From Brevinematales bacterium (GTDB lineage: Bacteria > Spirochaetota > Brevinematia > Brevinematales > Thermospiraceae): a stretch of 64,000 nucleotides of DNA. The position numbers and the translations under genes were made by a program. Under the pieces are notes generated by a model, which saw nothing but the letters and a program-made list of their open reading frames with translations, did no database searches and was not told where the DNA came from. The stretch lies in NCBI GenBank assembly GCA_013177995.1, contig JABLXN010000016.1, forward strand, positions 62,001-126,000, written 5' to 3'. Shown here piece after piece: positions 26,836-45,684 of this stretch (position 1 is its first letter; each line of letters begins with the position of its first letter).

Positions 26836-27346
26836 AAGCGCTCCCGCGCGGGGCAAAAGGGGCTCCGCCCCTTTTGAAAACCCCGTTTTCGCCCCTGCAA
26901 CGGTTTCTGGGAACCCTCTTTTTTCTCTTATCTTGCAGGCTGGAAGCTCTCTCTTTTCCAACCACCCAAAAAAATCTGTACCCCACCGGGCCGCTTTTGC
27001 GGTTGTGTACTCTTGACCTTGTGGCGGGAAAACCCTTCCGAAGTGAGGGCACAGGAGGTGCCCGAGGCGACATCTTCTGTTGCTTTTCCCAAAAAGCCCA
27101 CCGAAGCGTAGCCGCGGGGACCCCGCCTGAGCGGGGAATCGGCGAAGCGAGGTGGGCGCTATACTTCCGAAGTCAGGAGGACGAGTTGATGTCGCCCACG
27201 GAGGAAGGACTTTCCCTGAAAAAAGAAGGCGTCTCTCTCGTCCGCAAAAGCGGCCCATTGTTCGTCCGAGGCGCATGCGTAGCATGCGACGAGGACAACT
27301 CCATCCTGTAGCCGCTCAAGGACAGACGTCCTATCTGACCTTGAGC
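26836..27346. repeat. Dyad-rich, gene-free region at the end of the giant gene
   Basis: This stretch is crowded with inverted repeats. Small ones include AAAAGGGGCTCCGCCCCTTTT-type (26857-26877), GAAAACCCCGTTTTC, CCGCTTTTGCGG, GCGCATGCGTAGCATGCG near 27271 and GCTCAAGG/CCTTGAGC (27314-27346). Four larger pairs are nested around about 27128: GGGCCGCTTTTGCGG (26988) with CCGCAAAAGCGGCCC (27242), GGCGACATC (27066) with GATGTCGCC (27188), GCCCACC (27096) with GGTGGGC (27151), and CCCCGC with GCGGGG. From 26641 to 27172 I see no gene beyond these and the kinase control region. The last about 57 codons of the giant gene overlap this structured DNA. Confidence 0.7.
27091..27157 (-). terminator. Probable terminator of the giant gene
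   Basis: On the minus strand GCCCACC and GGTGGGC enclose an inner CCCCGC-TCAG-GCGGGG hairpin, and the outer stem is followed by TTTTT. It starts 15 nt after the stop codon at 27173. Confidence 0.65.
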
Positions 27347-30300
27347 TTCCTCGCCACCTTTCACTCCGCTGGCTATCACACCACCCCAGCCTCCGTTCCC
27401 GATCCAGGTATCAATGGCAGAACCTGCTATTGTCGTCCCCCACTCCGCCCAGTCCTTCGCATCCATCTTCAGATCAAGCTTCCCGTTCTCCACCCGAAGA
27501 CTCCTCTGCCCCAGATTCACCATCGAATTTGCAGCCCACTTCACCCATTTGTCGGCTCCACTCAGCCCTACCAGACCTGCCACACCACTCAACCCGGCAG
27601 ACAGCATCTCATATCCCCACTGATCCATCGATATGTTCCCCACCATCGCATTCAGAGAACTATTCATCATCTGCATCCCCGTCGCCGCTACAAGACATCC
27701 AATCGCATTCAATCCCGGCACAAAATTGATCGCTATCAACCCTATATTAAACAAACTCATATTCCCAAGAAAGGTCAACGTCCCCTCAAAAAAGTTACTG
27801 CAATCCCCCTCCCCATCATTATCCGCATCCGTGTCCCACAAACCCTTGTTCCAGAAAAACTGCTTCGCCTTCGATTCGCCAATCCCCTTCCTCACCTCCA
27901 TGATCGTCAGCGCTTCCGTGAGACGATACAGCTCAGGCTTATCATAACTCCCCCCAACCGTCTTCGGCTTCGCATTCTCCCTCGTGTATCCCTTCCCGCT
28001 CTCCCCTCCATGCTCCTTGAAATTCTTCGGCGGCTCCTTGCCGGATGGTACCTCATACCTGTTGCTCCCGAGGTGTTCCTCCGCCATCCGCTTCATGTGC
28101 TTCTCCATCTGCTTCTGCATCGCCACCGTCGCCATCTCCGAAATACCCTTCAGCGCTAAAAATCCAGCCCGTGGATCTGCCCCCATCGTCTTCTCCACAC
28201 GGCCCAAATCTCCCTCCACATCCCATTCCACACGGTTCTTCCACCAGTCCGTGTACAGCCAGTACGCATGCACATACTGATCCTCCTTCTCATCACCAAA
28301 CAGCGTCGAATCTATCAATACACCTTCCCTCACATACTCATCCCCTCTCTTCACAAATCCACTCCCGATAAACATCTCCTCCATGTTCTTCGCTATCTCT
28401 TCGTCCTGCTGTCTCATCACACGGTTCATCTCTTCCTTCGTCTCCTCTATCATCGCCCTCAGTCTCTCGACGCTCACCTCCACAGACACCGCTTCATATC
28501 CCCTCACCACCGCATCAAATTCCTTCCCGAGACTCGCATCCCTCACCCTCGACGCTGATAACGTCTCCATCACATACTTCGTCGACGCAAGTCTCACCCT
28601 CTCAAGCATCCGCCCAAAATAACTATCATACAGATGGCTATTCTCCTCTATCACATTGCTCATCATCTGCTTCACCACCCCGGGCTGGCACGCCACCATA
28701 TCAAGCTCCACCCCGCTCTTCTCCTTCAGCTCATCCACCGCACTCCTCAAACCTGCCAGCAACCCCTCAAGCTCCACTCCAACAAGTTCATTCACCCGTG
28801 CTACCGCCCCCTGCTCAATATTTGCCGTCACATTCGATATCCATTCCTCCTTCGCCACTATCACATTGCTCCACATCCGCCCCCACGCCTCTTCCCCAGC
28901 CGTCCTCTTCTCCTCATACCCGCGTCTCCACTCATTCCATCTCCCTGCATACTCTCGAAGCCCCCTGTCCCAGTTCAATTCCCCTCTCGCTCTCACCGTC
29001 GTCACCCATTCCATCCACTCCTGCTTCTGCTTCTCAAAATCATAATCCTCTAACCCCCACAAAAACCTCTGCATCTCCCCTTCCTGATTCTTCGTCTTCC
29101 CGTAACTCTCCTTCACCACCTCAAGCCCATCCCCCATCGCCTGCCTGTACCCCTCCGTCTTCATCCATCCAGTCCTGCCTCCCATCATCCTCATCGCTTC
29201 CCTCACCCCTTCTGCCTCAACCTCCTTCACCAGTTTCTCATCCCCAAGCTTCTGCGCAAGCTCATCCCGAAGCCCACTACACCTTTTCTCATACGCTATC
29301 CTGAACGTCTTCAAAAACTTCTCCATATTCACTCGATACGCCACCTTCTTCACCCCGCTTGCCGCATCCAAATACTCCCCGTACTCCACCACATCCCCAC
29401 CATATTGCCTCAATAGCTCCACTAACCCCTCATCCACACCCACATTCGAGATATACCCCCACATCGTCGTGTTCGAAAGCCCCTCCAGCACCCCACGCCA
29501 CCCCTCTGCCGTCAGCTCACCATACACCTTCCCCCCATTCGTCACCACCTTCCCTATCCATCTCGCTTCATTCGTCCCCCCAACCACTACCTCACAGTAC
29601 TTGTAATACTCCTCCGCCGCCGCACTAAATAACCGGTACTTCGACGCTATGTCCTTCTCCTTATCCTGCGTCCCCCAGTAGAGCCTCTGCTGCGACTCCA
29701 TCGCCACAAAAGCATTGTGAATCTGTGTCTGCGCCTCACTCGAAACAGCCCAGTGAACACCCCACGCCACCGCCGCAGCCGCCGCAAGCACCCCTACCAC
29801 ACCCCACAGACCAGGAACAAAAATTGCTATCGCTACCATCGCTGCCACAGCCGCTGACGCCGCAGCCGCCGCACCCCACGTCTCACTCATCGCCCTCTGA
29901 CCAACCCGATCCGTCACCTCCCTCTTCTTCTCCGCTCCTATCAGATTCGCTGCCCTGTCCACCCACTCAATACCGCTCTCCCCCTTCATCATCTCATACC
30001 CTTCTCTCCAGAAATTCCCTACCTTACACTCCTCCTCCGAAAGAGTAATCTTATCATTATACAATGCCTCTTTCCCTTTATAACTGTAGCTGTAACACCA
30101 TTTCTCCACATCCAGCCACTTATACACCCCCTCACTCGCATTGGTCCATACAGCCACCACCTCCCCGCTCCCGCTCTCCGTCACCGTCACAAAATTCGTC
30201 AGATACGCATTCCTCACCACCACACGATATTTCTCATCCAGCTCAAGAAGCTCAAAATTGGTGACATACACCTCCTTCACATTCGTTACAAAGCCCCCTC

Positions 30301-33300
30301 CCCCACTATACCTCTCACTCACCACCACACTACCCTTCAGCTCCCCAAGCCTTGCCTCCGCCTCTCCCCGTTCAAAAATACCAAACGCAGACAGCACCCT
30401 CTTCGCCACTACCTCATTCCCGTACGCCCCCTTCACCTTCTCAAATATCCCTCTTACATCACCCAGATCCCCCTTCACCGCCTGCAACAACTCCTTCGTC
30501 CTGTCTATGACACTATACCCCTCCTTCGCCATCCGGCACGCCACCTCCACAAGACTCTCATCATACGCCCCAATATACGCCCCAATACTATTCGTTACCT
30601 CATACAGCTTCTTCTCATACTCCTGCCTCACCACTCCCGCTTTCCGCCCCTGCTCCTCAAGCGCACTCAGAATACTCACCCTCTCACGATATTCCTCCAC
30701 ATACTGCTTCCTCAATGCCTCCGCTTCTTCCCACTTCTTCCTTTCCTCTAACCTCTCCTTCACCGCCTCCTCATACCTCACAAGCGCATTCGTGTACCCG
30801 CTGTACGCCCTCTGATACGCTTCCCTCGCATCCACCTTGTTCGTCACAAGCTTCCCTTCCATCCCCTCACTCGCATTCGTCACACTCTCCACTACATACG
30901 GCGTGCTCGCCCAGTTGTACACCGCAAGCACCTTCCGGTACTCCATATCCCGCCTGTCCACTTCCCCTTTCGCCGCCTTCACCGCCGCCATCACCTCATA
31001 ATACCCCTTCACCAGCCCCCCATACCTCTCTAACTCATCATAATACCGCCCCAAAAGTACCTGATTGCTCCTCTCAAGCTCCTCATAGACTCGCCACTTC
31101 TCATTCACATTCGAGACCGCCTTCGCCTCATTCCCCTTATACTCCCTCACGAAAACATTATACAACCCGAGATCCCTCTCCCTCTCTCTCATCGCCTCCT
31201 CATACCCCATCACCTCTCCCCCGTATTGCATCAATACCCCATCCCGTTCCACAAGATTCTTCACCTTCACGTCCGCTTCCCCAAGCCAGCCAACCACATC
31301 CCCTCCTCCACACCGGTACCACTCCACCTGCCCAACCATCTCCTCTAACACACCCCTCAACCTCTCCTTCCTCGACTCAACCTCCTGTGCCATATTAAAT
31401 CCCTCATCCCCCTCCCGGTACCCAAGTACCCCGTTCGTCTCACTCCACTTCTCCTCTCCTCTCCCATTTGTCTCCACCACCACATTCGTCGTATTCCTCT
31501 CCACCACACCAGCATAGTCCCTTATCGTCTTCCCCTTCCTCTCTTCCTCTTCCTTCAGCCGCTTCACCACCCCCTCCAGAATCTCTATCCTCCCGCCAGG
31601 CCCCTCAACCTCTCTCTGCCATTTCCCCATCTTCTCTATCAACCCGGCCCGCAGTCCCATCACCACCTTCCCCTCCACTACAAGCCTGCTCATCACCTCA
31701 AGCCCTCCCTTCACCATCTCATACCACGTCACCCCATCTATCATCTCTCCACCCGTCAGCCGGTATACCATCTTCACAATACTATCACCCTCTCCCCCTA
31801 TCCCCACCGCATTCGTACAATACCCCCTGTACTTCCGATAGGACTCCACCAGACCATCACTCCCTTCTCCCTCCACAAGCCCCCTGTACATACTATAAAG
31901 ACTGTCCCCCACCACTACCTCATTCGTGATCCCGAGCCCAATACCACTTGCCCACTCAAGCAATACACCCCTGTACACCCCCACCACATTCGTCCTCTCC
32001 TCATCACTCATATCAAGACCTTCCACCACACCCCACAGCACATTATCCACTACATTCGTCCTCTCCACCCCGCTCAACTTCACCCAGTTGCTCAGCGCTT
32101 CCTCCTCCGTCTTCACCACTCCATTCGTCCTCAATACCTCAGCCCTCAATGCCCCCTGCAAATACCACTGCCCCCACTCACTCACCCACACTCCCTGATT
32201 ATACCATCCCCCGGCCAGAAGCCCTATATACTCCTTCACCTCTCCCTCTGACAGTACCTCCTCAACTCCCTTCACCCTCTCATATACCCCCATGATACTT
32301 ATCCACCCCTGAGAACTTATCTCTTCCTCAACCTCCTCCTTCACCATCTCAAGCGCTTCCCGCTTCAATACCCCCTTCACCACTTCCTCTATCTCTTCAT
32401 CCTTCACCCACTCCACAACCCCACCAGGCCGCTTCTTCACCTCTTCCCTCACCCTCTCCACCGCTTTGCCGTCCCATATCACCCCCATCTCCCTTATAAC
32501 CCCCTCAACCACTCCCCCAACCATCACCCGCCTGAGCGCATCCTTCTCCCCCTCTTCCACCACATCATTCGTCATCACTATCCCATACGCCCCCCTATAA
32601 TCCCCCTCCCCAAGCTTCTTCACTACCTCCCCCGCACTCACCACCTTCCCGAGTAACCTCTCCCTCTCTTCACAAAGCTCACCAAGACCATTCGTCTCAA
32701 AAGCCCCCATCCCCAGTATCGCAAGCTCCTTCACCACCCCATACACCCCACCAAAAACCCTCAGATACTCATTCGTTACCACCTTCCCGATATCTCCCCT
32801 ACTCTCTATCACCCCCTTCAGCTCCTCAATCGCCCCCTTCACCCCATGATACCTCTTCACCATCCCGCCTATCTCCCCCTTCACCCCTATCACCTCCCTC
32901 GCCATCCGCCTTATCCCCCCTTCCATCGCACCCCACCACTTCATCACTATACCACTCACCCCTCCCCCATTCAATACAGCCCACACCCGCCCAAAATCAA
33001 GCTCCTTCTCCTCACAATACTCCCCGACGTCCCCCTTCGCCCCGTATTCACTCCCGCTCTCCATCCCATCTAACCACTCCTCCCATCCATCAAGCCACAC
33101 AAGCTCCTCCCCAACCCCCTCTATCACCCCCATCACCCCCTGATACCCGCTGAAAATATCCCCATCCTTCCCGTTCAACGCCCCCTCAATCAACTCCTTC
33201 ACCACCCCCCGCACCCCGGCACTCACCTTATGAGAATTCATCCATTCATCAAACATATCCCCCCTCAATACCACATTCGTCACTTTCCCCACCACATTCG

Positions 33301-35821
33301 TCCCCACATACCCCCCTGTATTCCCCATTACTGCCGTCCAGAAATCCCTCAATACATTCGTCACCTCACCATAAAAACGTGCCCTCACCCCCTTCACCAC
33401 TTCATCCTCTTCCACTCCGCCTGACTCATCCCACTCCACCTCTCCATTCGTCCCGTATCCCTTCATCCAGCTTATATACCCCTCAACCCCTTTCACCATC
33501 TCCACACCCTCCCGATACATCCCCTCTACCCCCGCTGCCCATAACACATACTCCCCCTCATTCGTTATCTCAAGTACCTTCTCCACCTCCTCACCATACA
33601 CACCAAACTGCCCCTTCCGCTCACTTACATAACCCTTCACCGCATCCAACCCATCCCCCACTGTCTCCACTACCCCCTTCACCCCCTCAAGCCCATTCGT
33701 CATACCACCATACACCCCCACCACATTCGTATACACACCCCAGTACATCATCTCAAGCCCAAGCCCATCCACCTCAACCACATTCGACCCATACGCCCTC
33801 CTCGCCCTCCAGTACCCCTCATACGCCTGCCCGTAACCCAAAAACGCCCGCTTCATCATCTCACCTATCACCCCCACACTCCTCTCATCCGTCACCAGCA
33901 CCCACACCTTCATCGCTTCCTCATACGCCTCCCTCGCCTTCTCCATCTCCCCCCTCAGTGACTCCACCTCAGCCCACACATTCGTCACACCATCATACCC
34001 CTCCTTCATCTTCTTCTCCCGCTCCCTCAACTCCCCCTCAAGCCTCTCAAGCTCCGCCCTCGCATTCGATAACGCCACCTCCGCAGCCCTTAACCTCCCC
34101 TCCGTCTCCTCCGCACTCTCACGACCCCCCTCGTTCGTCGCATACCTCACTACCTCCCCCGCTATCTCCACCTGATTGCTCCAGTACCATAACTCCCTCT
34201 CCCGCTTCCACAACAAAAGCTCCCTGCTACTGCGAAAATATACATCCGCCAGCCCCTCTACACCCCCACTCAACTCAAAAATACCATACCCAACCTCGTT
34301 CGTAAACATCTCCCTTATCAGCCGCCCCTCCATCATCACCACCATGTTCGAAAAATTTACCCGATTCGATACAAGCACCGCCTTCATCCCCAACAAATTC
34401 GTCAGCTCCTTCGCTACCTTCTCCAGTACACCCCTCCTCCCTATCACCACATTGCTCATATTCACCATCTGCGCCTTCGCATCATTCATCAGCCCATAAT
34501 AATCCATCATCTTACTATAAAAATAATTCGTCCCGCTATTATTCGTTAAAGCATTACTATACATCATTGTATAATAGTTATAGCTACTTGACAAATTCGA
34601 TAAAGACATCACCGCCCCTTCATACTCCCTCTGCGCCCCTTCTACCTCAGCCCTCTTCCTCTCTATCCGTCCATCCAGAAACTTCTCACTCTCCTCTATC
34701 TCCCCAAGCGTTACACTCGACTTCATACTCACCTGCTGCATCTGCAAAAGATAATCCCCATAATTCACCACCGCACGACCAATCTCCTCCTCAAGCTCCT
34801 TTGCCGCCTCCTCCAGCCCCAAACCCCTCTCCTTCGACTTCTTCTCCCATTCCTTCACCCCGGCCCTGATCCTCTCCTCCATCCCCTTCGTCCACTCGTA
34901 CCTCTTCTTCACAAGATACCGGTACCCATCCTTCCAGTACCTCTCCCCCTCCTCAAAATTCTCCCTCGCCACCTTCATCCATTCGTCCATCCCCTCCCTC
35001 ATCTTCTCAAATAACTCATCCCACTTCTTCACCCCCTCAATATACCTCCCCCTCACCTCATCCCGCCACTTCAAAAACTCCTCCTCACTCATCCCCTCCA
35101 CCTCAGGACACTCCTCAAGCGCCTCCTCAAGCTTCCTCACCTCCTCCCTTACATAATACTCCCCACTCCCCCTCTCCGCATACCACCTCAACGAATCATC
35201 ATCCAGCAACGCCTTCCTCACAAATATCCCTTCCTCCCTCTTCCTCACATCCACCAGCAACCTCAAATACCCTTCCATCACCCCACTCACCTCTAACTCC
35301 ACCTCCCCGCTCCCAAGATACCTCCCGGGCCAGCTGTTCGTTACTCCCCATACGTCCAGCCCACCCCACTCGTTCGTTAAACTACAAAAAGCCTCCCCAA
35401 CAACTCTGTACATCCGCCGAATACTCCCCTCTATGTCCCACCTGTCTATCCCATTCGTCTTCACCATCCCCTCTACACGCTCAACCCACCGACTCACCAT
35501 CACCCTCTTCTTCACCTCCTCCCTCACCCTCCACCTTAAACCCCTTTCCACTATCCCCTCTATCTCCCTCCTCGCTATCTCCACCACATCATTCGTCAGC
35601 ACTACCTCAACCCCTATCCCGTACCTCATCGCATAGTTCGTTACCCATACCCCGAGATACCTCGCCTCTATCTCCTTTACCCCGGCCTCGTTCGTGATCC
35701 ATACCCCATGCCTCACCCCCCTCTCTATCTCATACCTGTCTACCCCATACTCCTTCAAAATGTCTCCACTTACCCACCCCTGCATCACAAAAAATACTAA
35801 CCCAATAACCGCCTTCTTCAT
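27173..35821 (-). CDS. Giant secreted coiled-coil protein (about 2880 residues), unknown function
   Basis: A signal peptide (MKKAVIGLVFFVMQGWVSG) is followed by a mostly helical, charged chain with many predicted coiled coils. Ser/Thr-Asn dipeptides, often inside VTN or TNV, occur more than 40 times. An Ala-rich hydrophobic segment lies at about 1980-2030 and a second hydrophobic region at about 2675-2735, before DKWVKWAANSM. No enzyme motif is recognised. The plan (signal, huge coiled body, hydrophobic patches near the C-terminus) recalls the very long TIGR04388-type proteins of Leptospira, but I cannot verify homology. The coding strand is G-rich and C-poor, unlike its neighbours, using AGG, GGG, GTG and GAG heavily. 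The last about 57 codons differ in base use and lie in dyad-rich DNA, so the C-terminus may be acquired or truncated. RBS AAGGAGGAG; the ATG is at 35819-35821. Confidence 0.8.
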   Translation of the reverse strand: MKKAVIGLVFFVMQGWVSGDILKEYGVDRYEIERGVRHGVWITNEAGVKEIEARYLGVWVTNYAMRYGIGVEVVLTNDVVEIARREIEGIVERGLRWRVREEVKKRVMVSRWVERVEGMVKTNGIDRWDIEGSIRRMYRVVGEAFCSLTNEWGGLDVWGVTNSWPGRYLGSGEVELEVSGVMEGYLRLLVDVRKREEGIFVRKALLDDDSLRWYAERGSGEYYVREEVRKLEEALEECPEVEGMSEEEFLKWRDEVRGRYIEGVKKWDELFEKMREGMDEWMKVARENFEEGERYWKDGYRYLVKKRYEWTKGMEERIRAGVKEWEKKSKERGLGLEEAAKELEEEIGRAVVNYGDYLLQMQQVSMKSSVTLGEIEESEKFLDGRIERKRAEVEGAQREYEGAVMSLSNLSSSYNYYTMMYSNALTNNSGTNYFYSKMMDYYGLMNDAKAQMVNMSNVVIGRRGVLEKVAKELTNLLGMKAVLVSNRVNFSNMVVMMEGRLIREMFTNEVGYGIFELSGGVEGLADVYFRSSRELLLWKRERELWYWSNQVEIAGEVVRYATNEGGRESAEETEGRLRAAEVALSNARAELERLEGELREREKKMKEGYDGVTNVWAEVESLRGEMEKAREAYEEAMKVWVLVTDERSVGVIGEMMKRAFLGYGQAYEGYWRARRAYGSNVVEVDGLGLEMMYWGVYTNVVGVYGGMTNGLEGVKGVVETVGDGLDAVKGYVSERKGQFGVYGEEVEKVLEITNEGEYVLWAAGVEGMYREGVEMVKGVEGYISWMKGYGTNGEVEWDESGGVEEDEVVKGVRARFYGEVTNVLRDFWTAVMGNTGGYVGTNVVGKVTNVVLRGDMFDEWMNSHKVSAGVRGVVKELIEGALNGKDGDIFSGYQGVMGVIEGVGEELVWLDGWEEWLDGMESGSEYGAKGDVGEYCEEKELDFGRVWAVLNGGGVSGIVMKWWGAMEGGIRRMAREVIGVKGEIGGMVKRYHGVKGAIEELKGVIESRGDIGKVVTNEYLRVFGGVYGVVKELAILGMGAFETNGLGELCEERERLLGKVVSAGEVVKKLGEGDYRGAYGIVMTNDVVEEGEKDALRRVMVGGVVEGVIREMGVIWDGKAVERVREEVKKRPGGVVEWVKDEEIEEVVKGVLKREALEMVKEEVEEEISSQGWISIMGVYERVKGVEEVLSEGEVKEYIGLLAGGWYNQGVWVSEWGQWYLQGALRAEVLRTNGVVKTEEEALSNWVKLSGVERTNVVDNVLWGVVEGLDMSDEERTNVVGVYRGVLLEWASGIGLGITNEVVVGDSLYSMYRGLVEGEGSDGLVESYRKYRGYCTNAVGIGGEGDSIVKMVYRLTGGEMIDGVTWYEMVKGGLEVMSRLVVEGKVVMGLRAGLIEKMGKWQREVEGPGGRIEILEGVVKRLKEEEERKGKTIRDYAGVVERNTTNVVVETNGRGEEKWSETNGVLGYREGDEGFNMAQEVESRKERLRGVLEEMVGQVEWYRCGGGDVVGWLGEADVKVKNLVERDGVLMQYGGEVMGYEEAMRERERDLGLYNVFVREYKGNEAKAVSNVNEKWRVYEELERSNQVLLGRYYDELERYGGLVKGYYEVMAAVKAAKGEVDRRDMEYRKVLAVYNWASTPYVVESVTNASEGMEGKLVTNKVDAREAYQRAYSGYTNALVRYEEAVKERLEERKKWEEAEALRKQYVEEYRERVSILSALEEQGRKAGVVRQEYEKKLYEVTNSIGAYIGAYDESLVEVACRMAKEGYSVIDRTKELLQAVKGDLGDVRGIFEKVKGAYGNEVVAKRVLSAFGIFERGEAEARLGELKGSVVVSERYSGGGGFVTNVKEVYVTNFELLELDEKYRVVVRNAYLTNFVTVTESGSGEVVAVWTNASEGVYKWLDVEKWCYSYSYKGKEALYNDKITLSEEECKVGNFWREGYEMMKGESGIEWVDRAANLIGAEKKREVTDRVGQRAMSETWGAAAAASAAVAAMVAIAIFVPGLWGVVGVLAAAAAVAWGVHWAVSSEAQTQIHNAFVAMESQQRLYWGTQDKEKDIASKYRLFSAAAEEYYKYCEVVVGGTNEARWIGKVVTNGGKVYGELTAEGWRGVLEGLSNTTMWGYISNVGVDEGLVELLRQYGGDVVEYGEYLDAASGVKKVAYRVNMEKFLKTFRIAYEKRCSGLRDELAQKLGDEKLVKEVEAEGVREAMRMMGGRTGWMKTEGYRQAMGDGLEVVKESYGKTKNQEGEMQRFLWGLEDYDFEKQKQEWMEWVTTVRARGELNWDRGLREYAGRWNEWRRGYEEKRTAGEEAWGRMWSNVIVAKEEWISNVTANIEQGAVARVNELVGVELEGLLAGLRSAVDELKEKSGVELDMVACQPGVVKQMMSNVIEENSHLYDSYFGRMLERVRLASTKYVMETLSASRVRDASLGKEFDAVVRGYEAVSVEVSVERLRAMIEETKEEMNRVMRQQDEEIAKNMEEMFIGSGFVKRGDEYVREGVLIDSTLFGDEKEDQYVHAYWLYTDWWKNRVEWDVEGDLGRVEKTMGADPRAGFLALKGISEMATVAMQKQMEKHMKRMAEEHLGSNRYEVPSGKEPPKNFKEHGGESGKGYTRENAKPKTVGGSYDKPELYRLTEALTIMEVRKGIGESKAKQFFWNKGLWDTDADNDGEGDCSNFFEGTLTFLGNMSLFNIGLIAINFVPGLNAIGCLVAATGMQMMNSSLNAMVGNISMDQWGYEMLSAGLSGVAGLVGLSGADKWVKWAANSMVNLGQRSLRVENGKLDLKMDAKDWAEWGTTIAGSAIDTWIGNGGWGGVIASGVKGGEEAQGQIGRLSLSGYRMELSSSHATHAPRTNNGPLLRTRETPSFFRESPSSVGDINSSS

Positions 35822-41490: not shown

Positions 41491-41628
41491 GAGTCCCTTG
41501 CCCAGATGTTTTCTTCCCCTGTCTGGGTCAGGGGCTACGCCCCTCTCCCCCGCTTTTTCTGTTTACAAGGGCTTGTTTGTCTTTTTTATTACTTTCTTGA
41601 GCCCTTTGCACATTCGTGCAAAGGGCTC
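41491..41628 (+). repeat. Dispersed hairpin-bounded intergenic repeat, copy B
   Basis: It opens with GAGTCCCTTGCCCAGATG and TTTTCTTCCCC, carries the core palindrome TCAGGGGCTACGCCCCT, CTTTTTCTGTTTACAAGGG and TTTGTCTTTTTT, and closes with the hairpin GAGCCCTTTGCAC / GTGCAAAGGGCTC at 41599-41628. Compared with copies A and C it lacks about 60-75 bp of A/T-rich sequence before the final hairpin. Confidence 0.75.
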
Positions 41629-41662
41629 GATTTTTCTCCCCTTCTCTGAGGCAAAAGGCAAC

Positions 41663-41740
41663 TGTATACTTTTGTATACAAACTAAAAAACTGTATATTT
41701 TTGTATACAATGCCTTTTGCTATGTATACAAAAATATACA
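41663..41740 (+). promoter_or_regulatory. Three 18-bp palindromes upstream of a sigma-54 promoter (candidate enhancer sites)
   Basis: The sites are TGTATACTTTTGTATACA (41663-41680, perfect), TGTATATTTTTGTATACA (41692-41709) and TGTATACAAAAATATACA (41723-41740). The third is the exact reverse complement of the second. They are 29 and 31 bp apart, about three helical turns, and their centres lie about 165, 136 and 105 bp before the predicted sigma-54 start, the usual range for activator sites. Confidence 0.8.
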
Positions 41741-41809
41741 AAACCTCTTTTTATCATTGTCACCCTTTCTTATTTTCTTTTATTTCAAATAAATAGAAAA
41801 TTTTTGATT

Positions 41810-41826
41810 TTGGCACGCTTATTGCA
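41810..41826 (+). promoter_or_regulatory. Sigma-54 (RpoN) promoter of the sigma factor gene
   Basis: TTGGCACGCTTATTGCA matches the sigma-54 consensus TTGGCACG-N4-TTGCA at every position, with GG and GC exactly 10 bp apart. The start near 41837 would leave a leader of about 11 nt that begins with GGAGG, directly before the ATG at 41848. Confidence 0.9.
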
Positions 41827-41847
41827 AAAGAAGAGCGGAGGTACAAT

Positions 41848-42648
41848 ATGAAAGAGTATCGTATTCTTAAACAATATCTCAAAGAGATTGGTCGCTATCC
41901 TCTTCTTTCCCCTGAAGAAGAGATGGAACTTGCAAGGCGTATTCAAAAGGGTGATACCAAAGCGAAAAAAACTCTCATTGAGAGTAATCTTCGCCTCGTG
42001 GTGAAGATCGCCATAGAAATGCATCAGGGAAAAATGCCTCTCATGGATATCATCCAGAATGGCAATTTAGGACTCATTCGAGCAGCAGAAAAGTTTGATC
42101 CCGAGAGAAATATCCGATTCTCCAGTTATGCCGCCTACTGGATCAAACAAAGCATCCTGCGGCATTTTCAGGAGGATGGACACCTTGAAAACATCTCCGC
42201 CCGCCAGCAGGACAAAAAACGAGCTATACGTCGGTTTATTGAGGATTTCTTTGTCAGGGAAAGCCGTCTTCCCTCGGCTTCTGAACTTGCAAGAGGCATG
42301 TCTCTCTCCCTTTTTGAGGCAGCCCAAGAACTTAAAAACTACCAGCCTCATCTCTATGAGGGACCGAACTACTCTTCTCTTGAAGACATTGCCGATTCCG
42401 AGGACATAGAAAATACCATTTGCCACCAGTGTCTCTCTGAAGAACTCGACAATCTCCTCTCCGAATTTGACGAGGACTCACAAAAACTTCTTCGTTTACG
42501 GTATGGTTTTGAAAACGAGGACTGCGCCACCCTTTCTGAACTTGCCGAACAGTTTCATATTACCGCCGAAGGGATAAGACAGCGAGAAAATCGTCTTCTT
42601 GCCGCCCTTCGAGACAAAAACCCTTCTCTCAAATACTACCTTGCCTAA
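41848..42648 (+). CDS. Sigma-70 family RNA polymerase sigma factor (RpoS/RpoD-like, group 2)
   Basis: The 266-residue protein lacks region 1.1. Region 1.2 is YLKEIGRYPLLSPEEEMELARRIQKGD; region 2 has NLRLVVKIA, DIIQNGNLGLIRAAEKFD and RFSSYAAYWIKQSILR for -10 recognition. Region 3 is present in modified form, and region 4 has LLRLRYGFENEDCATLSELAEQFHITAEGIRQRENRLLAAL for -35 recognition. Size and build are close to Borrelia RpoS (267 residues). The gene stands behind a consensus sigma-54 promoter with three upstream palindromes, so it is probably the middle step of an RpoN-to-sigma cascade. Which genes it controls is unknown. Confidence 0.92.
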   Translation: MKEYRILKQYLKEIGRYPLLSPEEEMELARRIQKGDTKAKKTLIESNLRLVVKIAIEMHQGKMPLMDIIQNGNLGLIRAAEKFDPERNIRFSSYAAYWIKQSILRHFQEDGHLENISARQQDKKRAIRRFIEDFFVRESRLPSASELARGMSLSLFEAAQELKNYQPHLYEGPNYSSLEDIADSEDIENTICHQCLSEELDNLLSEFDEDSQKLLRLRYGFENEDCATLSELAEQFHITAEGIRQRENRLLAALRDKNPSLKYYLA

Positions 42649-42684: not shown

Positions 42685-42724
42685 AAAGGGCTTCTGCCTT
42701 CTGAGCAGGGCCCTTTTTCTTTTT
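42685..42724 (+). terminator. Rho-independent terminator of the sigma factor gene
   Basis: AAAGGGC followed by CTGC pairs with GCAG and GCCCTTT around a short loop and is followed by TTTTTCTTTTT, 37 nt after the stop codon. Confidence 0.85.
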
Positions 42725-44454: not shown

Positions 44455-45684
44455 ATGCTCAATATTCTGGTGATCCTCATCATGGTCGGTGGATGGTTGG
44501 GTGGAAGGCTTTTTCGGGCGCTTAAACTCCCCGCCCCTATCGGGATGCTTGCCTGGGGTATTGTATTGGGCATGCTCATCCGTTCCGGAATCGGAGGAAA
44601 CACTCTTTCCGGCGAAGGATTAGATATCCTCAAAAAAACAGAACCCTTTCTCAAGTCGTTAGCGTTGGTGGTAATTCTCCTCCGTGGAGGACTGGGAATT
44701 CAAAGAGAAGCCCTCAATCGCCATGGCTGGACAGCCTTTTTTATGTCGTGGGTACCGGCCACCTTTGAAATGATAGGAATTTCCGTCTTACTTCATTTTG
44801 TTTTGGGATTCTCCTGGCCTATCGCCTTTTTGACTTCATGCATTCTCTCTGCTGTCTCCCTTGCGGTCGTCGTTCCCGCCATGCTTGAACTCAAACAGGC
44901 CGGGATAGGCAAGAAAAAAGATGTCCCTACCATGGTCTTAGCGGCTACTTCCCTTGACAATGTGGTGGCTGTGACCTTTTTCTCTTTAGCCCTTTCCCTG
45001 GCCCGAGGACAAACAAAAGGCCTTCTTTCCATGACGTGGGTTCTCCCGTGGAGTGTGGGGATTGGGGCTCTGGTAGGGGCTCTCACAGGCTGGTTCCTTT
45101 CTACCTATCTTGAAAAGCGCTACACCCGCATTCGGGCAACAGAGAAAGCCATTCTTATCCTGATGATGGCTCTTATGGCCATGCAGGTCGGAGATATTCT
45201 CCATGCCTCAGCACTGGTAGCCGTGGTGATGATGGGCTTTGTCCTCCTGGAACGGGCCCCTCGCGTAGCCAATGAAGTAGCCCGAAAGCTCAATGTCCTC
45301 TGGGTGGCGGCTGAGATTGTCCTTTTTGTCTTGGTGGGGATGGCCGTGGATCCAAAGCATATTCTCCAGTTAGGTCCCTTAGGTATTGTGATCATTCTGG
45401 GTGGCCTGGTCTTCCGATCGCTTGGCGTACTTCTGGCCACAGCCAGAACCTCCTGCCACTGGAAAGAGCGGCTTTTCTGTGTGATTTCTTACCTCCCCAA
45501 AGCCACCGTCCAGGCTGCCTTGGGAAGCGTTCCCTTGGCTTATGGCCTTCCTGGTGGAGAAACCATCCTGGCTTTAGCGGTTGCAGCCATTCTTATCACC
45601 TCACCATTGGGTGCATGGCTCATTGAACGCTTTTCTCTTCCCCTACTCAACGTTGACCTGCACTCTAAAGGAGACCGGTTCTAA
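44455..45684 (+). CDS. Cation:proton antiporter (CPA family)
   Basis: This 409-residue inner-membrane protein has about 12 hydrophobic segments and exchanges Na+ or K+ for H+. Typical features are the N-terminal GGWLGGRLFRALKLPAPIGMLAWGIVLGM, LSAVSLAVVVPAMLELKQAG and the ion site SLDNVVAVTFF, where Asp and Asn stand in place of the ND/DD pair. The ribosome site is GAGAGGAGG. A Na+/H+ antiporter would fit with a Na+-coupled V-ATPase, but specificity cannot be read from the sequence. folK overlaps its stop by one base. Confidence 0.82.
   Translation: MLNILVILIMVGGWLGGRLFRALKLPAPIGMLAWGIVLGMLIRSGIGGNTLSGEGLDILKKTEPFLKSLALVVILLRGGLGIQREALNRHGWTAFFMSWVPATFEMIGISVLLHFVLGFSWPIAFLTSCILSAVSLAVVVPAMLELKQAGIGKKKDVPTMVLAATSLDNVVAVTFFSLALSLARGQTKGLLSMTWVLPWSVGIGALVGALTGWFLSTYLEKRYTRIRATEKAILILMMALMAMQVGDILHASALVAVVMMGFVLLERAPRVANEVARKLNVLWVAAEIVLFVLVGMAVDPKHILQLGPLGIVIILGGLVFRSLGVLLATARTSCHWKERLFCVISYLPKATVQAALGSVPLAYGLPGGETILALAVAAILITSPLGAWLIERFSLPLLNVDLHSKGDRF

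Follow-up and report, generated by a model that had tools for sequence, protein, structure and literature searches.

A sigma-54 promoter with conserved upstream palindromes precedes an RpoS-type sigma factor gene in a Brevinematales spirochaete and suggests a site-dependent form of the RpoN-to-RpoS cascade

The RpoN-RpoS cascade has been treated as a virulence pathway of Borrelia, and its activator is odd in that it needs no DNA site. A gene for an RpoS-type sigma factor in a genome of the order Brevinematales (2.38 Mb, 57 contigs) raises the question of whether this cascade may also exist in a form that does depend on such sites and, if so, which activator would read them. The gene is located in a stretch of 64,000 nucleotides (C8:62001-126000), referred to here as the window. 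A preliminary description of this DNA had proposed a perfect sigma-54 promoter 21 nt before a 266-residue sigma-70-family gene, preceded by three TGTATAC-N4-GTATACA palindromes at about -165, -136 and -105, some three helical turns apart. All these elements can be read directly from the sequence at the positions given there, and the locus is organized as follows (palindrome centres are counted from the predicted +1 at 41837):

41597-41630, plus strand: intrinsic terminator of the upstream gene (15-bp stem, 4-nt loop, T tail)
41663-41680, strand not applicable: distal palindrome TGTATACTTTTGTATACA, centre -165.5, perfect 7+7 inverted repeat, kept in two congeneric genomes
41692-41709, strand not applicable: middle palindrome TGTATATTTTTGTATACA, centre -136.5, one mismatched pair, kept in two congeneric genomes
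41723-41740, strand not applicable: proximal palindrome TGTATACAAAAATATACA, centre -105.5, one mismatched pair, kept in two congeneric genomes
41810-41826, plus strand: sigma-54 (-24/-12) promoter TTGGCACGCTTATTGCA, exact consensus, predicted +1 at 41837
41837-41841, plus strand: ribosome-binding site GGAGG, recognized by sequence, at the predicted 5' end of the transcript
41848-42648, plus strand: gene for a 266-aa sigma-70-family factor of RpoS type, in which Pfam recognizes regions 1.2, 2 and 4 and which trees place in one clade with Borrelia RpoS
42692-42711, plus strand: terminator-like structure 3' of the sigma gene, weak, with a short stem

The best named match to the sigma protein comes from a Brevinematales MAG (79% identity), and its identity to Borrelia RpoS is 36-37%. 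Its best NCBIfam match is the model of proteobacterial RpoS, TIGR02394, with a score (169.7 bits) below the cut-off of 378.7. The match of the promoter to the sigma-54 consensus, at 41811-41826, is the sole exact one in the 64-kb window. With the ATG at 41848, the predicted (not mapped) transcription start would leave a leader of 11 nt that begins with GGAGG. As no plus-strand sigma-70 promoter was seen upstream of the sigma gene, and as the strong terminator at 41597-41630 appears, from its sequence, to isolate the gene from the preceding one, the -24/-12 element is the only promoter visible. It could be argued that this element is a mere chance match and that the gene is transcribed by sigma-70; perfect 15-mers do arise by chance, one of the five in the genome (C3:6166, discarded from further consideration) being situated inside a gene. 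We nevertheless regard this explanation as highly improbable, given the lack of a sigma-70 candidate and the conservation of the promoter: every one of the order's eight RpoS-clade genes has it, as do 20 of the 24 sampled families possessing such a gene.

The centres of the three palindromes are 29 and 31 bp apart. Eleven matches with up to three mismatches occur in the window, compared with 2.2 expected (none of 100 shuffles reaches 11), and the exact matches are only the three before the sigma gene. When the whole genome is scanned with the pattern TGTATAY-N4-RTATACA, allowing no more than one mismatch, four places are found, three at the sigma gene and one before lpxC, and the reversed control pattern gives no matches at this stringency. 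The palindromes are thus not scattered, but confined to two sigma-54 promoters, and in two congeneric genomes those with at most one mismatch occur at the same two loci only. When the DNA upstream of the sigma gene is aligned for the three genomes, palindromes and promoter stand out as conserved islands, with the palindrome centres at -165.5/-136.5/-105.5 in two genomes and at about -168.5/-137.5/-107.5 in the third. A classical feature of activated sigma-54 promoters, i.e. inverted-repeat sites some 100-200 bp upstream in a conserved position, is present here. Palindromes with two mismatches elsewhere in the genome were followed as well, and about half of them proved to be copies of one insertion-sequence-like repeat rather than additional members of the regulon. 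This repeat, in which TGTCAACTGTAGTATACA lies some 100 bp away from a transposase-like ORF of 389 aa, is present in about 20 copies in this genome (e.g. C3:21682 and C9:15385), often at contig ends (C31, C35, C36, C45, C57).

LpxC is the committed enzyme of lipid A synthesis. The palindrome associated with its gene (identified by a match to TIGR00325 above the cut-off) occupies C6:47310-47327; a perfect sigma-54 promoter follows after approximately 70 bp and lpxC itself after 113 bp. The centre of this palindrome lies at -105.5 from the predicted start, exactly as does the proximal site of the sigma gene. The layouts at both genes recur in two other genomes of the genus. Before lpxC, the palindrome is also encountered in G006, with its centre at -105.5, and in G009, with its centre at -95.5. 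A sigma-54 promoter precedes lpxC in all eight Brevinematales lpxC regions examined; the upstream neighbour is a guanylate-kinase-like gene in the window's family and another gene in the other families of the order. The lpxC sites of families f3 and f4 are degenerate, and perfect or one-mismatch sigma-54 promoters before lpxC are also encountered in several members of f8, f9, f27 and f30. We infer with moderate confidence, in the absence of binding or expression data, that lpxC is under the same activator protein as the sigma gene. Family f14 offers a further case of physical linkage to a sigma factor, as lpxC is located there directly upstream of a sigma gene of a second clade (clade B, see below) in the same orientation (G083:C8:1617871-1619645; G113:C1:1097610-1099369).

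The genome also encodes the required machinery. A search for rpoN revealed a complete gene with the activator-interaction (AID), core-binding (CBD) and DNA-binding (DBD) domains, all above cut-off, and a search for NtrC-type activators revealed four, each with an AAA+ domain (Sigma54_activat) and HTH_8. A weak Sigma54_DBD match in the window itself (44676-44993, minus strand) was dismissed, as it contains two stops and is antisense to a transporter gene. The four activators are a NifA-like protein with GAF domains, whose gene adjoins that for glutamine synthetase (group A); a response regulator of the Rrp2 orthologue group on contig C15 (C15a; group B); an NtrX-like response regulator encoded beside a HAMP histidine kinase, likewise on contig C15 (group C); and a receiver-less protein on contig C31 (group D). 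Intergenic sigma-54 promoters shared by at least two of the three genomes of the genus precede the sigma gene studied here, lpxC, a second sigma factor gene and a small heat-shock protein gene, as well as the genes for glutamine synthetase, an ammonium transporter and secreted alpha-amylase-like proteins (the heat-shock, glutamine synthetase, transporter and amylase-like names were assigned by eye from the protein sequences). The palindromes upstream of these targets, again read by eye, are of four types, alongside exactly four activators: TGTATAC at the present sigma gene and lpxC, TGTNTCA-N3 at the second sigma gene and hsp20, a TGCA-rich type at the amylases and TGCCTATTTTTT at the nitrogen genes.

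Some of these additional targets deserve a brief comment. The second sigma-70-family gene (G000:C12:3413-4371; L030, L106) encodes regions 1.2-4 and has a sigma-54 promoter and its own palindrome, TGTGTCATTTTGATACG; this second branch recurs across the phylum. The small heat-shock protein gene (G000:C22:18184, L036; L198, L219) is preceded by a sigma-54 promoter in each of the three congeneric genomes, and its upstream sites resemble those of the second sigma gene. Three paralogous genes for secreted alpha-amylase-like proteins (C34:66883, C54:141791 and C22:36224 of G000) combine a sigma-54 promoter with TGCA-rich palindromes, suggesting sugar-responsive sigma-54 control.

To place the locus in a broader context, we used the sigma protein as a query against 246 Spirochaetota genomes. 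The 101 related genes that were read fall into two clades, A (n = 54) and B (n = 47). Clade A holds the window's sigma gene and rpoS of three Borrelia-like genomes (about 0.9 Mb, assigned to Borrelia by their size and the position of the gene), and clade B holds the second sigma factor. The resemblance to RpoS of Borrelia put forward in the preliminary description is borne out by this comparison, as the two proteins belong to one clade, which two trees support at 0.90 and 0.98 and which is separate from that of the second sigma factor. A perfect sigma-54 promoter is found before 41 of the 54 clade A genes, as opposed to 15 of the 47 clade B genes; 40 of the clade A promoters lie within 150 bp, with none found in clade A on the opposite strand, with the reversed pattern or in shuffles.

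Each of the two kinds of palindrome was expressed as a weight matrix and compared with dinucleotide shuffles. Of the 48 clade A genes outside the genus, 27 have a significant match to the TGTATAC matrix, for which sites of the window's genus alone were used (p<=0.05; 17 at p<=0.01; Fisher 1.9e-22); in clade B this holds for two of 26 genes. The TGTGTCA matrix, trained in part on sites from f3 and f4, has significant matches in 24 of the 26 clade B genes outside the genus and in seven of the 48 clade A genes. Owing to their common descent the genes are less independent than the combined p-values imply, and the contrast between the two clades under the same test is the safer evidence. The TGTATAC site is not significant in several families with an RpoS-clade gene, it is weak or absent at the sigma gene of family f4 from the same order, and the three Borrelia-like rpoS genes show neither motif beyond chance (p 0.47-0.93 for TGTATAC, 0.07-0.40 for TGTGTCA). 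Taken together, the data suggest that the RpoN-RpoS cascade is old and nearly phylum-wide, normally equipped with dedicated activator sites and paired with a second sigma branch.

The positions of the sites also bear on the possibility that the palindromes bind an ordinary repressor or another regulator without an AAA+ domain, the sigma-54 promoter relying on unspecific or distant contacts as in Borrelia. An 18-bp A+T-rich palindrome would suit many regulator families, and there are no binding data to decide the matter. However, none of the palindromes reaches into the promoter, and two genes unrelated to each other combine them with a sigma-54 promoter. Their spacing is nearly helical and their distances are fixed, at -105 in the present case and for the most part between -117 and -135 elsewhere, the site being present in 13 families including the window's own. 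They also fit the classes of TGT/ACA half-sites described for enhancer-binding proteins of Desulfovibrio vulgaris, for which the part of the report available to us lists three motif groups with half-sites 9, 11 or 12 bp apart (PMC4641369); the corresponding spacing in the two motifs here, TGTATAC and TGTGTCA, is 12 and 11 bp. The activators and target genes are different in Desulfovibrio, and no sigma-factor cascade is noted in that part of the report. That the palindromes serve a repressor or another regulator without an AAA+ domain thus seems to us improbable, though less so than a chance origin of the promoter, and binding by an enhancer-binding protein remains the preferred interpretation.

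Which of the four activators would read the TGTATAC sites is a more difficult question. Group B, the orthologue group of Rrp2 (support 1.0, 22 members), occurs in nearly every genome sampled, and Rrp2 does activate rpoS in Borrelia (PMC1976401). Yet the Rrp2-type protein is the only activator of G244, a genome whose clade B sigma gene carries a TGTGTCA site, and in G015 the group B gene directly adjoins the clade B sigma gene. Group B thus most likely reads TGTGTCA, and we abandoned a first idea in which the TGTATAC sites were bound by the Rrp2 orthologue; on this indirect evidence, the orthologue probably serves the second sigma branch and is probably not the activator of the window's sigma gene. 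In family f2 (L149, L153, L154, L156) the sole activator is a protein of the Rrp2 group that stops short of the DNA-binding domain, a domain lost there; the clade B sigma genes of this family have no sigma-54 promoter, and the genomes lack lpxC and an RpoS-clade gene.

A pointer to another activator is provided by G193 and G200, which keep the TGTATAC site at a clade A gene and possess only two activators with an HTH, one of the Rrp2 type and the other GAF-like with the recognition helix IQRTYVSR. HTHs of the IQRTYVSR type (from six genomes) score on average 82.7 against group C, whose helix in the window's genome is IERTYLYRKMKEL, and 38-55 against groups A, B and D (one activator of G228 was left out of the comparison). 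This similarity makes the group C NtrX-like regulator the likeliest activator at the TGTATAC sites, an inference of moderate confidence made without binding data. Against it stands a score of 90 between group C and a single HTH of G203; no RpoS-clade gene was detected in that genome, whose only two sigma matches are one clade B protein and presumably RpoD. It remains possible, although we consider it unlikely, that the cascade and its sites are real and the activator is the group D protein or, after all, the Rrp2 orthologue. Each of the four activator groups is represented in the order's three families in which these genes are kept, and group D, having no sensory domain, would suit steady expression of an essential gene like lpxC; its HTH, however, is less like those of the f22 genomes that keep the TGTATAC site, where it has no clear counterpart. 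Activator genes were also noted within approximately 8 kb of an RpoS-clade gene in two cases, a NifA-like one in G010 (C66:30167-37844) and that for Rrp2 in the Borrelia-like genome G215 (C1:810453-818886).

With group C as the likeliest activator, the following mechanism can be envisaged. The enhancer-binding protein would bind one to three of the TGTATAC-N4-GTATACA sites on one face of the DNA, 105-165 bp upstream, and contact, by inferred looping, the RpoN-RNA polymerase parked at the -24/-12 promoter; by spending ATP it would open the promoter, and the RpoS-type sigma factor would be made. The regulon at the TGTATAC sites would thus comprise a stress-type sigma factor and an enzyme of outer-membrane control (a physiological role that is itself inferred), and the Rrp2 orthologue would probably act on the second sigma factor via TGTGTCA-N3-TGACACA. 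We put the probability of this explanation as a whole, i.e. the locus as the head of a sigma-54-to-RpoS cascade with group C as the likeliest activator and group B serving a second branch, at roughly 85%. The sites, the promoters, the gene identities, their conservation, the structure of the clades and the absence of sites in Borrelia-like genomes are matters of sequence and statistics; that RpoN transcribes the sigma gene and that an enhancer-binding protein uses the palindromes is strongly inferred, with no transcription start, binding or expression data at hand. The site-dependent RpoN-to-RpoS cascade envisaged in the preliminary description is supported to the extent that sequence alone allows, by the sites, the promoter, rpoN, the activators and the RpoS-clade sigma factor. 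Our analyses extend it by the sharing of the sites by lpxC, the phylum-wide occurrence of the cascade, the second sigma branch with its own sites, and the probable exclusion of the Rrp2 orthologue as the activator here.

The counterpart in Borrelia burgdorferi, Rrp2-RpoN-RpoS, likewise has a sigma-54 promoter directly before an orthologous RpoS-clade gene and needs an NtrC-family activator, and the earlier statement that Rrp2 acts on rpoS without a specific upstream DNA site is correct (PMC1976401). In contrast to Borrelia, where no such site precedes rpoS and all activation falls to a single activator type, that of Rrp2, the system described here has three conserved palindromes, shares them with lpxC and exists in a genome with four activators. 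It works, as far as can be inferred, like the Borrelia cascade with an orthologous sigma factor, but it is not site-free, and thus represents a site-dependent variant. Among the titles and abstracts listed by a literature search, none dealt with an RpoS-type cascade in spirochaetes other than Borrelia. In Leptospira, EbpA/EbpB and RpoN exert sigma-54 control of amtB, and sigma-54 promoters are predicted at glnA and lpxC (PMC12655853). This prediction is the only mention of a sigma-54 promoter at lpxC in the literature found, and the portion of that paper available to us describes neither an activator site at lpxC nor an RpoS-type sigma target. Alphaproteobacterial NtrYX offers a parallel, not evidence: an NtrX-type regulator affects lpxC expression there as well, by repression in some species and indirectly in Rhodobacter (PMC7240162, PMC12444477), but the effect is negative, unlike the sigma-54 activation inferred here.

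Judged by the sequences compared, the site-free cascade of Borrelia looks like a derived form, an exception in the phylum. A joint reading of the data would start from an ancestral two-branched spirochaete sigma-54 cascade, in which an activator with an RTYL-type recognition helix drove RpoS (in Brevinematales also lpxC) via TGTATAC sites and the Rrp2 orthologue drove the second sigma factor via TGTGTCA sites. In Borrelia the first activator would then have disappeared, together with its sites and the second sigma factor, and the orphaned rpoS promoter would have been taken over by Rrp2 without a binding site. The odds of this reading as a whole appear to us evenly balanced, and the takeover in Borrelia is speculative; if true, it would explain the long-puzzling enhancer independence of the Borrelia system. 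The anomaly of Borrelia thereby becomes a testable hypothesis of loss and takeover, and lipid A synthesis, through its committed enzyme, becomes linked in spirochaetes to a stress-type sigma factor under one activator, a connection inferred without bench data. Elsewhere in the window, the minus strand at 27173-35821 harbours a single ORF of 2882 aa, whose start resembles a signal sequence and whose product would be rich in TN dipeptides and contain long charged stretches.
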